Of a stretch of 64,000 bases of DNA, positions 15,084-32,350 are shown piece by piece. Position 1 is the first letter of the stretch, and each line of letters starts with the position of its first letter. Source of the DNA: Subsaxibacter sp. CAU 1640 (GTDB lineage: Bacteria; Bacteroidota; Bacteroidia; Flavobacteriales; Flavobacteriaceae); NCBI RefSeq assembly GCF_023156585.1, contig NZ_JALNMI010000002.1, positions 538,479 through 602,478 of the forward strand, written 5' to 3'. The position numbers and the translations under genes were made by a program. The notes under the pieces were generated by a model. It worked only from the letters and a program-made list of their open reading frames with translations. It did not search any database and was not told where the DNA came from.

Positions 15084-16166
15084 TTATCCATTTATCACTT
15101 TCTCCTGATGATTTATTGATTCCTGATGGATTGCTTTAAAAACTCTTAAGATAAATTCCTCACTCAAGTTTTTCTCTTCTCCTTGAAGAATCATTTTTCC
15201 GAGAATTTCGTTCCATCGTTTAGTTTGTAGCACAGCAACATTTTTGGACTTCTTCAAGGCGCCAATCTCATCAGCAATTTTCATACGCTTGCCCAAAATA
15301 TCTATCAACTGGTGGTCGATAACATCAATTTGTGTACGCATCGTGGACAACTTATTTTTGAATTCCGCAGCGTCATCAGTAACCTTTCTAATTCTTAAAT
15401 CTTTGGTAATCTGATCCAAGGTCTCTGGTGTGATTTGCTGTGCAGCATCGCTCCAAGCATTGTCTGGGTCGTAATGCGTTTCTACCATCAATCCATCATA
15501 GTTCAAATCTAGAGCTGTTTGGCACAAATCAAAAATGATATCGCGTCGTCCAGCAATATGGCTTGGGTCTAAAATAATTGGCAAATCTGGAAATTTATTT
15601 TGCAAGTCAATCGCTATCTGCCATTCCGGATTGTTTCTGTAGCGTGTTTTTTCGTAAGTAGAAAATCCTCTATGGATGACACCTAATTTTTTTATGTCGG
15701 CCGTGTAAAACCGTTCTACAGCACCTAACCAAAGTGACAAATCTGGATTCACTGGATTTTTGACCAACACCGTTTTATCAGTTCCTCTCAAGGCATCTGC
15801 AATATCTTGTACGATAAATGGACTCACAGTGGTACGAGCGCCAATCCATAGAATATCTACATCGTGCTGCAGCGCCAATTCCACGTGATGCGGATTTGCA
15901 ACTTCAGTGGTGGTTAAAAGACCTGTTTCTTGCTTCGCTTTTTGCAACCATTTCAATCCAAGCGCTCCTACACCTTCAAAATTTCCAGGTCGTGTGCGAG
16001 GTTTCCAAATTCCAGCTCGTAAAACCGTAGTATCAGTTTGTTTCAATTGATGCGCAATTTTCAAAACTTGCTCTTCTGTCTCTGCACTGCAAGGCCCAGC
16101 AATGACCAAGGGATGGTTTAATTCAAAATCATCCAACCATTTTCTCAATTCCTTATTATTTTCCAT
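15084..16166 (-). CDS. Bifunctional DAHP synthase / chorismate mutase
   Basis: Catalyses the first shikimate-pathway step (PEP + erythrose-4-phosphate) and the conversion of chorismate to prephenate. In the 360-residue protein, residues 1 to about 255 are a class I-beta (KDO8P-synthase-like) DAHP synthase: VIAGPCSAET, GIWKPRTRPGNFEGVG, TEVANP, LVKNPVNP, DPSHIAGRR. Residues about 265-350 are an all-helical type II (AroQ) chorismate mutase (MRTQIDVIDHQLIDILGKRM). It is the last gene of the pheA-aminotransferase-tyrA operon, 51 bp after tyrA. The fused mutase may let phenylalanine/tyrosine supply be controlled together with pathway entry. Confidence 0.93.
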   Translation of the reverse strand: MENNKELRKWLDDFELNHPLVIAGPCSAETEEQVLKIAHQLKQTDTTVLRAGIWKPRTRPGNFEGVGALGLKWLQKAKQETGLLTTTEVANPHHVELALQHDVDILWIGARTTVSPFIVQDIADALRGTDKTVLVKNPVNPDLSLWLGAVERFYTADIKKLGVIHRGFSTYEKTRYRNNPEWQIAIDLQNKFPDLPIILDPSHIAGRRDIIFDLCQTALDLNYDGLMVETHYDPDNAWSDAAQQITPETLDQITKDLRIRKVTDDAAEFKNKLSTMRTQIDVIDHQLIDILGKRMKIADEIGALKKSKNVAVLQTKRWNEILGKMILQGEEKNLSEEFILRVFKAIHQESINHQEKVING

Positions 16167-16217: not shown

Positions 16218-17075
16218 TTATTTTATTCCGTTTAATATATCTTTAATGTGATTTGTATTCTGCATTTCATCAAAAATTGCTTCAAAATCATCCTGCTCCA
16301 TCATTGCCTTGAAATGTGTTAAATTATGGATGTATTCTTCCAAAGTTTCGATGACGTTTTCTTTATTCTGTTTAAATATTGGCGTCCACATCGCTGGTGA
16401 ACTCTTTGCCAATCTTACCGTACTTGCAAAACCACTTCCTGCCATATCAAAAATGTCACGTTCATTCTTTTCCTTTTCAATCACTGTTTTACCAAGCATA
16501 AACGAGCTGATATGCGACAGATGCGACACATAGGCAATATGCTTGTCGTGTGCTTCCGGATTCATATATCTGATGCGCATTCCTAAATCAGAAAATAGCT
16601 TTAATGCCCTTTCTTGTAGTTTAAATGCCGTCTTTTCAACCTCACAAATGATGAGGGTTTTATGTTGATATAGGTTTGCAATTGCTGCTTTTGGTCCTGA
16701 AAATTCTGTTCCTGCAATAGGATGGGTCGCTAAAAAATTTCGCCTTTTCGGGTGATTATCCACTGACTTACAAACGGGCAATTTTGTCGAGCCAACATCC
16801 ATTACGAGCGTATTATCAGATACTACATCCAAAATTGTTGACAGTTTTTCCGAAGCTGCATCTACAGGTATGGAAAGTATCACCAAATCTGCATTTTGTA
16901 AATCACTTAATTCAGCTTTTTCATCAATTAAATTCAAGGCTAGTGCCTCATCCAAATGTGATTCGTTATGGTCCACGCCGTAGATAGTTGCGTTAGGATA
17001 CTGTTTACGAATATCCAAGGCAAAACTTCCGCCAATTAACCCAATTCCTATGATATAAACACTGTTCATACTCAT
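16218..17075 (-). CDS. tyrA: Prephenate dehydrogenase
   Basis: NAD(P)+-dependent oxidation and decarboxylation of prephenate to 4-hydroxyphenylpyruvate on the way to tyrosine. The 285-residue protein has an N-terminal Rossmann motif (IIGIGLIGGSFAL), conserved HPIAGTEFSGP and a helical C-terminal dimerisation part with HDKHIAYVSHLSH and SPAMWTPIF. No C-terminal ACT domain is seen. ATG at 17075 overlaps the preceding aminotransferase stop by 4 bp (ATGA), so the two are translationally coupled. Confidence 0.93.
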   Translation of the reverse strand: MSMNSVYIIGIGLIGGSFALDIRKQYPNATIYGVDHNESHLDEALALNLIDEKAELSDLQNADLVILSIPVDAASEKLSTILDVVSDNTLVMDVGSTKLPVCKSVDNHPKRRNFLATHPIAGTEFSGPKAAIANLYQHKTLIICEVEKTAFKLQERALKLFSDLGMRIRYMNPEAHDKHIAYVSHLSHISSFMLGKTVIEKEKNERDIFDMAGSGFASTVRLAKSSPAMWTPIFKQNKENVIETLEEYIHNLTHFKAMMEQDDFEAIFDEMQNTNHIKDILNGIK

Positions 17076-18217
17076 TTTACCCTTGCAATTGCTTCCTCAA
17101 AATCTTCCGTGGTGGCGCACAATGATATTCTGATGTAACCTTCTCCTTTTGTTCCGAAAATCGTTCCTGGTGCCACAAAAATCGAATTGGCTTTTAAAAG
17201 GACATCAATAAATTCTTCGGATGACACTCCTGATGGAAGTTTTCCCCAAACAAACATTCCTGCAGAATTTTTATCGTATGTACAATTCAATTCATCTGCC
17301 AATTTCCAAGCCAATTTCCGACGCTCTTCATACACACTGTTCAAACTAGTGTACCACAATTTTGAACTTTTCAAGGCCTCAATCGCACCTTTCTGAATGC
17401 CATAAAACATACCAGAATCCATATTGCTTTTCACTTTTAGAATAGCATCAATATATTCCGTTTTACCCAAAACCATTCCGACTCTCCAGCCAGCCATATT
17501 AAACGTTTTACTCAAGGAATTCAATTCGAGACATACATCTCTGGCACCAGAGTATTTAAGAATGCTTCTAGGAAACTCGTTCAAAACAAAACTGTACGGA
17601 TTATCATTGACAACCAAAATGTTATTGCGCTTTGCAAAAGCAATGATATCCTCAAACGTCTTATTAGAAGCTTGTGCTCCAGTAGGCATATGCGGATAAT
17701 TGACCCACATCAACTTCACTTTTTCGAGATTTTTCTTCTCCAAATGAAGCAGATTCGGCTCGTAATTGTTTCTTTCGACCAAATCATAATATCTTGGTTT
17801 CGCATTTAACAATTTGGTAACCGACGTATAGGTTGGATAACCAGGATTTGGAATCAGCACTTCATCGCCTTCATTCAAAAAAGCCATAGAAATGTGCATA
17901 ATACCCTCCTTACTTCCCATCAGCGGTAGAACTTCTCTTAACGGACTTAAGGACACACCATAATTGCTTTTATAAAATTCGGTGATGGCTTCGCGAAATT
18001 CAGGTAAGCCGATGTAGTTCTGATATTTGTGCGCTCCTTCATCGTCGATACTCGATTTAAGAACATCCATAACACGTTGCGATGGCGACATATCTGGGCT
18101 ACCAATACCCAAATTGATGATGGGCTTGCCGTGGGCTTTCAGCAGGTTGACTTCCTTCAATTTCTTTGAAAAGTAGTATTCCTCAACGTGGTCTAACCGG
18201 TTGGATGGTTGAATCAT
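17072..18217 (-). CDS. PLP-dependent class I/II aminotransferase (likely aromatic/prephenate)
   Basis: A 381-residue fold-type I aminotransferase. The PLP lysine lies in SLSKTFNMAGWRVG, and other family marks include INLGIGSPDMSPS, NPGYPTYTS, NDNPYS and the C-terminal IRISLC arginine that binds the substrate carboxylate. It overlaps pheA upstream and tyrA downstream by 4 bp each, so its likely role is the transamination of phenylpyruvate/hydroxyphenylpyruvate or prephenate. By sequence it resembles the aspartate/LL-diaminopimelate aminotransferase group, so exact specificity is inferred from context. Confidence 0.88.
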   Translation of the reverse strand: MIQPSNRLDHVEEYYFSKKLKEVNLLKAHGKPIINLGIGSPDMSPSQRVMDVLKSSIDDEGAHKYQNYIGLPEFREAITEFYKSNYGVSLSPLREVLPLMGSKEGIMHISMAFLNEGDEVLIPNPGYPTYTSVTKLLNAKPRYYDLVERNNYEPNLLHLEKKNLEKVKLMWVNYPHMPTGAQASNKTFEDIIAFAKRNNILVVNDNPYSFVLNEFPRSILKYSGARDVCLELNSLSKTFNMAGWRVGMVLGKTEYIDAILKVKSNMDSGMFYGIQKGAIEALKSSKLWYTSLNSVYEERRKLAWKLADELNCTYDKNSAGMFVWGKLPSGVSSEEFIDVLLKANSIFVAPGTIFGTKGEGYIRISLCATTEDFEEAIARVK

Positions 18218-19041
18218 AATTTTGCGTTTTTATATTCGCCTAATATTTTAAAATCTTCAGCCATAATCTCTATAATCGATTTGGCTTTCTTGTAATTTTT
18301 ATAATCTTCAAAAGTGACATCCACAAAAAAAGCATATTTCCAAGGTGTATCAATCTTTGGCAACGATTGAATTTTCGTTAAGTTCAACTGGCAATCGCTC
18401 AATACATTCAGTACACTGGCAAGACTTCCTCTTTTGTGTTCCAATTCAAATTTCAGTGACGCCTTGTCAATGTCTTTTTCAGCAATTTCAGAATTTGTGG
18501 TTTTCACGATGACAAAACGGGTTTCGTTATGTTTAATAGTCTGTATACTTTCTGAAATAATTTCCAACTGAAACAATTCTGCGGCCAAACCGCTCGCGAT
18601 GGCTCCTACATTCTTCAATTGTCTTTCATTGATTCGTCTTGCCACTTCGGCTGTATCCTTGTCCTCAATGAGTTTTATGTGAGGATGTTTTTTAAAAAAT
18701 TCCTTGCATTGCAATAATGCCATCGGATGCGAATACACTTCTTCAATATCACCAATTGCTTGATTAGGCAATGCCATCAAATGATGTTGAATGTCCAGAT
18801 AATGTTCGCCAATAATGTGCAAATGATTCGTATCTATCAAAGCGTAATTTGGGATAATGGAACCTACGATGGAATTCTCAATAGCCATAATGGCAGCATC
18901 CGTTTTTTGCTTCAAGAGATTATCGACCACTTTATCAAAAGTCATACATTCTACCACTTCCACAGCATCGTCAAACCATTCCTGTGACACAATGTGGTGA
19001 AAGGAGCCTTTGATACCTTGTATGGAAACCGATTCAATCAA
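18214..19041 (-). CDS. pheA: Prephenate dehydratase
   Basis: Converts prephenate to phenylpyruvate. The 275-residue protein has a periplasmic-binding-like dehydratase part (IQGIKGSFHH, ENSIVGSI, SHPMALLQC, the catalytic NETRFVIV motif) and a C-terminal ACT domain (LEHKRGSLASVLNVLSDCQLN) that normally binds Phe for feedback inhibition. No mutase is fused; that activity is in the last gene of the operon. The start is TTG at 19041: an in-frame stop lies 12 bp upstream and the first ATG is far inside the conserved region. A 6-codon ORF (ATG at 19054, stop at 19034-19036) overlaps this TTG and may feed ribosomes to it. Expression is probably controlled by the attenuator upstream. Confidence 0.93.
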   Translation of the reverse strand: MIESVSIQGIKGSFHHIVSQEWFDDAVEVVECMTFDKVVDNLLKQKTDAAIMAIENSIVGSIIPNYALIDTNHLHIIGEHYLDIQHHLMALPNQAIGDIEEVYSHPMALLQCKEFFKKHPHIKLIEDKDTAEVARRINERQLKNVGAIASGLAAELFQLEIISESIQTIKHNETRFVIVKTTNSEIAEKDIDKASLKFELEHKRGSLASVLNVLSDCQLNLTKIQSLPKIDTPWKYAFFVDVTFEDYKNYKKAKSIIEIMAEDFKILGEYKNAKL

Positions 19042-19061: not shown

Positions 19062-19087
19062 AAAAAGTCCCGATTTTCATCGAGACT
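19062..19087 (-). terminator. Attenuator terminator before pheA
   Basis: Minus strand AGTCTCGAT-GAAA-ATCGGGACT (19066-19087) then a short T-run (19062-19066). Its 5' half can instead pair with the end of the leader peptide gene: CGAGGCCTTATA (19119-19130) pairs with TATAAG-A-GTCTCG (19081-19093), 12 bp with one bulge. The two structures exclude each other, as expected for termination/antitermination. Confidence 0.8.
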
Positions 19088-19111
19088 CTTATAAAATTTA
19101 TTTCCTATAAA

Positions 19112-19189
19112 TTATACATATAAGGCCTCGCTTCTTTCGCTAAAAAAGAAATAAAACCAGTTATAATATGTAGAATTCGTTGCTTTCAT
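19112..19189 (-). CDS. Aromatic amino-acid leader peptide
   Basis: A 25-codon ORF starting at ATG 19189, placed between a promoter-like sequence and the attenuator hairpin. Nine of its residues are aromatic, and eight of them fall in residues 8-16 (YYNWFYFFF). Ribosome stalling at these Tyr/Phe codons under aromatic starvation would free the end of the leader (codons for SEALY, 19119-19130) to form the antiterminator. It is probably not a functional protein but a sensor of charged tRNA-Phe/tRNA-Tyr levels. The hairpin UUCUUU/AAAGAA within the leader may be the protecting 1:2 structure. Confidence 0.8.
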   Translation of the reverse strand: MKATNSTYYNWFYFFFSERSEALYV

Positions 19190-19201: not shown

Positions 19202-19232
19202 CTAAAGTAACCAATAAATCGAAAAAACAAAA
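19202..19232 (-). promoter_or_regulatory. Promoter of the aromatic operon
   Basis: Minus strand TTTTG (19228-19232), 18 bp, TACTTTAG (19202-19209), one base off the TAnnTTTG consensus. It predicts transcription starting just before the leader peptide. Confidence 0.5.
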
Positions 19233-30728: not shown

Positions 30729-30730
30729 GT

Positions 30731-30852
30731 TGTTATCTATCCAAATCATCGATAAATGAATCGAGTCATTAAGTAGAATTTAGCACCTTCTCGCAGTCCG
30801 AGGGTTGCTAAGGCTTCATCGGGTCTAATCCCTCCGCCTTTCTTGATAACAC
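30731..30852 (-). promoter_or_regulatory. SAM-I riboswitch (S-box)
   Basis: On the minus strand the hallmark S-box order is intact: closing helix GTTATC (30845-30850) with GATAAC (30732-30737), AAGAAAGGCGGAGGGA, the kink-turn/pseudoknot segment CCCGATGAAGCC, TTAGCAACC, then a variable hairpin and AAGGTGCTAAATTC, and finally GGATAGATAAC. It precedes the PLP/homoserine dehydrogenase/metH operon. By family knowledge it binds S-adenosylmethionine and turns the operon off. Confidence 0.95.
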
Positions 30853-30970: not shown

Positions 30971-30984
30971 CCGAAGATAAATTT

Positions 30985-31036
30985 TAGAGGAAAGATTTGA
31001 CTGATTGCAACCTCATTAAAAAATGCTAAAGGCAGT
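30985..31036 (+). promoter_or_regulatory. SAM-II riboswitch
   Basis: Matches the compact SAM-II pseudoknot: first helix GAGG (30987-30990) with CCTC (31011-31014), conserved loop GATTTGACTGATTGCAA, linker ATTAAAAAAT, and the 3' strand GCTAAAGG that pairs back to TTGC in the loop. It lies upstream of metK. It has no terminator after it, so translation control is likely, though the metK ATG is about 60 bases further on. Confidence 0.85.
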
Positions 31037-31096
31037 GCAAACTTCCTTCGACGCAAAACGTCAAATCGCTTTCAATTACTTATTTAAAGACTTAAT

Positions 31097-32350
31097 ATGG
31101 CGTATTTATTTACATCAGAGAGCGTGTCTGAAGGACACCCAGACAAAGTGGCGGATCAGATCAGTGATGCGTTGATTGATCACTTTTTAGCATTTGATAA
31201 AGATTCAAAAGTGGCTTGTGAAACCCTTGTGACGACAGGACAGGTAGTTCTTGCGGGCGAGGTAAAATCGAACACGTATTTAGATGTTCAAAAGATTGCG
31301 AGAGAGACCATCAATAAGATAGGTTATACGAAGAGTGCGTATATGTTTGACGGCAATTCGTGTGGTGTATTTTCGGCTATACACGAGCAATCTGAAGATA
31401 TTAATCGTGGGGTGGACCGTGCGAGCAAAGAAGAGCAAGGTGCGGGCGACCAAGGAATGATGTTTGGATACGCGACAAGAGAAACGGAAAACTTAATGCC
31501 TCTTGCGCTGGACTTATCTCATCGTATTTTGATTGAACTGGCAGCGTTGCGACGTGAGAACAAGGATATTACATATCTACGTCCGGATTCTAAAAGTCAG
31601 GTGACTATTGAATATAGCGATGACAACGTTCCACAACGGATCGATGCTATTGTGGTATCTACACAGCACGATGAGTTTGGCGATGACGATACTATGCTTG
31701 CCAAAATCCGGAAGGATATTGTTGACATCTTGATTCCTAGAGTGAAGGCTGGACTTCCGGAACATATACAAGAACTTTTTAATGACGAGATCAAATATCA
31801 CATTAATCCTACGGGGAAATTTGTTATCGGAGGGCCTCATGGTGATACTGGACTGACTGGTCGTAAAATCATTGTGGATACTTATGGTGGCAAGGGCGCT
31901 CATGGTGGCGGTGCTTTCTCTGGTAAAGACCCTAGTAAGGTAGATAGAAGTGCTGCATACGCTACTCGTCATATCGCCAAGAATCTTGTGGCGGCTGGAC
32001 TGTGTGATGAAGTATTGGTGCAGGTGAGTTACGCTATCGGGGTGGTAGAACCGATGGGTATCTACATCAATACATACGGTACATGCCCTTTTAATTTGAC
32101 TGATGGCGAAATTGCAGAGAAGGTAGAGCAAATTTTTGATATGCGACCTGCTTCTATTGAAGAGCGATTGAAGCTTCGTCAGCCGATGTACAGTGAAACG
32201 GCTGCTTATGGCCACATGGGAAGAACCAATGAGACTGTTACCAAAACTTTCTCGCAGCCTAATGGTGACGACGTTGAAGTTGAGGTTGAGTTATTCACTT
32301 GGGAGAAACTTGACTATGTGGATAAGGTTAAAGAGGCCTTTGATATTTAG
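31097..32350 (+). CDS. metK: S-adenosylmethionine synthetase
   Basis: Makes SAM from methionine and ATP. The 417-residue protein has [37 protein letters not shown], the P-loop-like [33 protein letters not shown] and a C-terminal helical end. It is divergently transcribed from the methionine operon and carries its own SAM-II riboswitch. GC content looks higher than in neighbouring genes, as expected for a highly expressed gene. Confidence 0.97.

Follow-up and report, generated by a model that had tools for sequence, protein, structure and literature searches.

The pheA operon and its leader region

The window, a stretch of 64,000 nucleotides from Subsaxibacter sp. CAU 1640, carries a four-gene operon for aromatic amino acid synthesis that is preceded by a short leader region, with all of the following features on the minus strand and listed in the direction of transcription.

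19202 to 19230, minus strand: promoter-like element TTG-N18-TACTTTAG, read by eye and putative
19112 to 19189, minus strand: leader peptide open reading frame (ORF) MKATNSTYYNWFYFFFSERSEALYV with its stop codon, read directly from the sequence, with similar leaders 5' of pheA in relatives
19142 to 19168, minus strand: control codons YYNWFYFFF (leader codons 8 to 16), with Phe and Tyr both present in 202/202 leader blocks
19125 to 19157, minus strand: predicted 1:2 (protector or pause) hairpin, from folding, in which the control codons pair with a purine-rich region that includes arm 2
19119 to 19130, minus strand: arm 2 (CGAGGCCUUAUA), antiterminator 5' side, within the last part of the leader ORF, from folding and pairing of its 5-bp core in relatives
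19081 to 19093, minus strand: arm 3, antiterminator 3' side, of which 19089 to 19081 doubles as the terminator 5' arm, from folding and comparison
19062 to 19089, minus strand: intrinsic terminator (hairpin 19089 to 19064, U-tract 19066 to 19062), from folding and presence in relatives
18214 to 19041, minus strand: pheA, prephenate dehydratase with an ACT domain and a TTG start at 19041
17072 to 18217, minus strand: class I/II aminotransferase, presumably an aromatic aminotransferase, substrate role putative
16218 to 17075, minus strand: tyrA, prephenate dehydrogenase, above the NCBIfam cut-off
15084 to 16166, minus strand: DAHP synthase-chorismate mutase fusion (PF00793 and PF01817)

The initial annotation of this stretch was right in naming a pheA-tyrA operon, which additionally holds the DAHP synthase-chorismate mutase. 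The aminotransferase has its top scores against LL-diaminopimelate aminotransferase models, yet below their cut-offs, and its position in the operon points to an aromatic role. A class II DAHP synthase was not found in the genome, the sole other PF00793 (DAHP_synth_1) protein is the Kdo8P synthase, and the DAHP synthase of the operon is the only recognizable one encoded in this genome. Because this enzyme is included, the operon would control entry to the whole aromatic pathway and not merely the Phe/Tyr branch.

The leader ORF has 25 codons and a TAA stop, running from 19189 to 19112 (ATG AAA GCA ACG AAT TCT ACA TAT TAT AAC TGG TTT TAT TTC TTT TTT AGC GAA AGA AGC GAG GCC TTA TAT GTA TAA), with the stop codon at 19114 to 19112. 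Residues 8 to 16 (YYNWFYFFF) include eight aromatics, and Y24 brings the total to nine, so that direct reading gives the same ORF and aromatic count as had been noted before. The last four aromatic codons (13 to 16, 19142 to 19153) are nearly fixed at their silent sites, reading TAT TTC TTT TTT in ∼95% of 101 close leaders; judging from these sequences, codon identity alone does not explain this.

Two mutually exclusive structures are predicted from the leader end onward, since both use 19089 to 19081. The terminator (arms 19089 to 19079 and 19074 to 19064, loop 19078 to 19075) folds at -13.8 kcal/mol, with a z-score of -5.95 against dinucleotide shuffles, and the antiterminator, in which 19130 to 19119 pairs with 19093 to 19081 over 12 bp with one bulge, reaches -13.6 kcal/mol when folded without the terminator 3' arm (z -3.29, with 0/200 shuffles as good). 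Folding thus reproduces the antiterminator first proposed from the letters alone and its exclusion of the terminator, and the coordinates proposed with it are off by no more than a few bases, although the terminator is slightly longer than the 19066 to 19087 originally assigned. Since the antiterminator does not exceed the terminator in stability, the switch must depend on the order of folding. The U-tract of the window copy is short (UUUUUAGUUU), which is probably why a strict terminator scan does not report the window's terminator; in many relatives it is longer.

Upstream of the leader, the promoter-like element differs at one position of the -7 box from the Bacteroidota consensus TTTG-N19-21-TAnnTTTG, which it otherwise resembles, and transcription driven by it would begin shortly 5' of the leader ATG. 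The strict form TTG-N15-23-TAnnTTTG, which the window's own copy fails, occurs upstream of 16/201 leaders of relatives and of none of the shuffled sequences.

Conservation, covariation, and spacing of the leader

With one genome sampled per genus, an aromatic leader lies 5' of pheA in 119/120 genera of the family, and these leaders differ as much as MTKQYFWNGFYFYFFFKRSTGLF and MSNLITWNAFYYFYFFYRDRIGSAV. In related species, 76/80 named loci have an ORF with at least six aromatics in 10 residues upstream of pheA, and two of the four exceptions (L020 and L050) have less than 160 nt of upstream sequence. All 202 distinct leaders are followed by a terminator, which is positioned 20 to 53 nt (median, 24) 3' of the leader stop, and the distance from the stop to pheA ranges from ∼50 to >200 nt among relatives.

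The complementarity between the leader and the terminator 5' arm is also kept among relatives. The duplex averages -12.4 kcal/mol, compared with -6.0 when the leader part is dinucleotide shuffled (mean z -3.6), and for 182/202 leaders individually at most 2 of 50 shuffles do as well. A 5-bp core of arms 2 and 3 pairs in 200 of the 202, although this core is the best match chosen in each sequence, so that the shuffle comparison, which controls for that choice, is the fairer figure; relatedness among the sequences is not fully removed. The three arms covary, with arm 2/arm 3/arm 4 combinations of GAGAC/GTCTC/GAGAC or GGGAC, GGGAC/GTCCC/GGGAC, GGAAC/GTTCC/GGAAC, and CAGGA/TCCTG/CAGGA. Conservation in relatives had been put forward as a test of an attenuator at this locus, and the aromatic codons are indeed kept, as is the antiterminator pairing, through compensatory changes.

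The spacing of these elements is similarly constrained. Measured from its first base, the last clustered aromatic codon lies 11 to 23 nt 5' of arm 2 in 200/202 leaders (mostly 14 to 18), and in most of the 202 the stop codon lies 7 to 19 nt past the start of arm 2. A ribosome covers ∼12 to 15 nt ahead of its decoding site and about as much behind it; with this footprint, a stall anywhere in the block would free arm 2, and a ribosome at the stop codon would cover it. The 1:2 hairpin, which would hide arm 2, has a modest excess of stable folds, with at most 2 of 40 shuffles doing as well in 45/202 relatives, and at least half of arm 2 is paired with the aromatic block in 158/202 predicted leader folds; its stability is not above that of synonymously resampled leaders.

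Trp codons are present in 136/202 aromatic blocks and make up 137 of 1,574 aromatic codons in the 202 distinct leaders, a share close to that expected of ordinary proteins. They are frequent but not clearly enriched, and Trp was not retained as a clear third signal, although sensing of Phe, Tyr, and Trp together by the leader is possible. Relating leader Trp to the presence of DAHP synthase in the operon is uninformative, because the gene is always close downstream of pheA in the ∼35 genera compared (coordinates compared by eye).

Beyond the family, three families of the order (f2, f9, and f13) also have an aromatic leader with a terminator, as do three families of the class (f17, f18, and f19) and part of a fourth (f22). 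The leader is present in f3 and f23, where the terminator is less certain; that of f15 is weaker (five aromatics in 10), and three f15 genomes have a terminator. No aromatic leader was found in f16 (genomes of ∼0.6 Mb), in the single f12 genome, or in f5, where PheA identity is only ∼30%. Among other classes, one genome each of f28, f31, f40, and f46 (together L273, L276, L278, and L283) carries the leader, exactly those with a PheA 42 to 44% identical to the query, and it is absent from the checked genomes of these families with a PheA 31 to 36% identical. By eye, the gene following pheA in L276 and L278 is the same kind of aminotransferase, and in L273 pheA and DAHP synthase-chorismate mutase form a single reading frame. 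Since the leader tracks the Bacteroidia-type PheA in these four families, the pattern suggests that leader and operon travel together and may have been transferred jointly between classes. A broader proposal, that a single leader responds to Phe, Tyr, and Trp alike, gates the sole DAHP synthase and with it the whole pathway, is ancestral to most Bacteroidia, and passed to other classes with the operon, is tentative and on balance rather unlikely to hold in full.

Predicted attenuation and competing explanations

The pheA leader is very probably a ribosome-mediated transcription attenuator. The sequences themselves establish the ORF, the two mutually exclusive structures with their conservation, covariation, and spacing, and the operon content, and the order, spacing, and codon content that first suggested classical attenuation are borne out by conservation, covariation, and geometry in the 202 leaders. 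Promoter activity, ribosome stalling, termination, and the direction of control are predicted from this arrangement. Transcription would start just 5' of the leader, which would be translated as it is synthesized. When charged tRNA-Phe or tRNA-Tyr (possibly also tRNA-Trp) is scarce, the ribosome would stall in codons 8 to 16 with its leading edge short of arm 2, leaving arm 2 to pair with arm 3 once that is made; the terminator would not form, and RNA polymerase would enter the genes for PheA, the aminotransferase, TyrA, and DAHP synthase-chorismate mutase. When charged tRNAs are plentiful, the ribosome would reach the stop codon at 19114 to 19112 and cover arm 2, arm 3 would pair with arm 4, and transcription would end near 19062. 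In the absence of translation, pairing of the aromatic codons with the arm 2 region in the 1:2 hairpin would probably favor termination too.

The leader could instead act as an arrest peptide of the TnaC type, sensing the nascent peptide or free aromatic amino acids and not tRNA charging. The nearest relatives keep the residue order T-Y-x-N-W-F-Y-F-F-F tightly, which would favor an arrest peptide, but in these same leaders the silent sites are nearly fixed too (TAT TTC TTT TTT), which indicates constraint at the RNA level as much as at the peptide level. Across genera, moreover, the order of F, Y, and W varies freely (FYFYFFF, YYFGYFYYF, and FYYYFF, among others), whereas the density of aromatics and their distance to arm 2 are kept, and sensing of this kind is very improbable.

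Less probable still is a plain promoter-proximal terminator or 5' mRNA stabilizer, with an ORF that merely serves translational coupling or reinitiation into pheA. Short leader genes close to a downstream start can help reinitiation (PMC4833913), but the distance from the leader stop to pheA is variable, the terminator sits between the ORF and pheA, and the aromatic content fits the pathway, as do the His and Trp contents of other leaders. AT-rich DNA commonly yields Phe and Tyr codons, which would favor a chance ORF next to chance hairpins; this least probable of the explanations is refuted by the conservation in 119/120 genera, the terminators after every leader, the covariation, and the fixed geometry, and the checked genomes with a divergent pheA lack such an ORF.

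Related leaders and known attenuators

Ribosome-mediated attenuation at pheA would not stand alone in this genome. The his operon has a leader, MKFIQNHHHHFHTCTQAS, before hisG, and the trp operon has a leader, MNTILNHTWWWNSRNANFVN, before trpE (L232/L233); 3' of each, an inverted repeat and a T run that resemble a terminator were identified by eye. The trp leader matches the Rfam family Bacteroid-trp (RF01692), and the His leader is without an Rfam match. The amino acids of both leaders agree with the pathways of their operons, which therefore provide a control for specificity within the genome. An ORF, MSNVNHSSTITISSTSLEGFTTVTTTTTTLWG, also lies 5' of a fused aspartokinase-homoserine dehydrogenase gene (C3, L302, ∼1207 to 1305) and is likely a Thr/Ile leader peptide. 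An ilvD-type dihydroxyacid dehydratase (PF00920) was not found in the whole genome, which would mean that standard branched-chain amino acid synthesis is missing, if the assembly is complete. The window itself contains two back-to-back riboswitches: a SAM riboswitch (RF00162) at 30730 to 30852 on the minus strand faces genes for a PLP sulfhydrylase-like protein, homoserine dehydrogenase, and methionine synthase (30609 to 24694), and a SAM-II riboswitch (RF01726) at 30981 to 31039 on the plus strand faces metK at 31097, with gene names taken from reading the translations.

The closest enterobacterial counterpart is the pheL-pheA attenuator of Escherichia coli and Salmonella (RF01859, Phe_leader), which likewise has a short Phe-rich leader and a terminator/antiterminator switch 5' of pheA. 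The window leader scores 20.8 bits against this model, under its cut-off of 55, and an existing Rfam name was rejected, this sub-threshold match being the sole one. It differs in adding Tyr codons, and in relatives often Trp codons, and in preceding a four-gene operon that includes DAHP synthase (a comparison drawn partly from general knowledge). The ilvGMEDA and thrABC attenuators similarly combine in one leader the codons for several amino acids that a branched pathway yields as end products, although these are branched-chain or Thr/Ile codons and not aromatic ones. A 2010 survey of bacterial attenuators by Lopatovskaya and colleagues may already include a prediction of the pheA element.

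Within the phylum, Bacteroid-trp, listed in Weinberg et al. 2010 (PMC2864571), is also a leader-peptide attenuator, but it has Trp codons and precedes trp operons, and the RF01692 model has no match at the pheA leader. In Flavobacterium psychrophilum, the main text of a transcriptome study describes a structured element upstream of pheA that is conserved in other Flavobacteriaceae genera and has no Rfam hit, and it reports strong signs that operons for amino acid biosynthesis are preceded by leader-peptide attenuators (Guerin et al. 2021, PMC9723704). Being structured and 5' of pheA like the element in the window, it is independent support for such an element; unlike the present analysis, that main text presents neither a mechanism nor a leader sequence or covariation for pheA. 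The initial annotation's surprise at an attenuator of this kind in this phylum was therefore too strong, since the kind is known from the Bacteroidete trp leader in Rfam and this instance is partly known from the published pheA 5' element. Relative to that main text, the explicit mechanism, the covariation, the breadth of distribution, and the location of the sole recognizable DAHP synthase in the operon are new here.

For the 5' element whose action the main text of the 2021 report does not state, these observations provide a concrete model that can be tested, and they supply ∼200 natural variants of the leader for study. A new Rfam family for the pheA leader and improved annotation of small ORFs could be warranted. 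A single genome here carries leaders for His, Trp, Phe/Tyr, and probably Thr/Ile, suggesting that the Bacteroidota regularly use leader-peptide attenuation to control amino acid operons.
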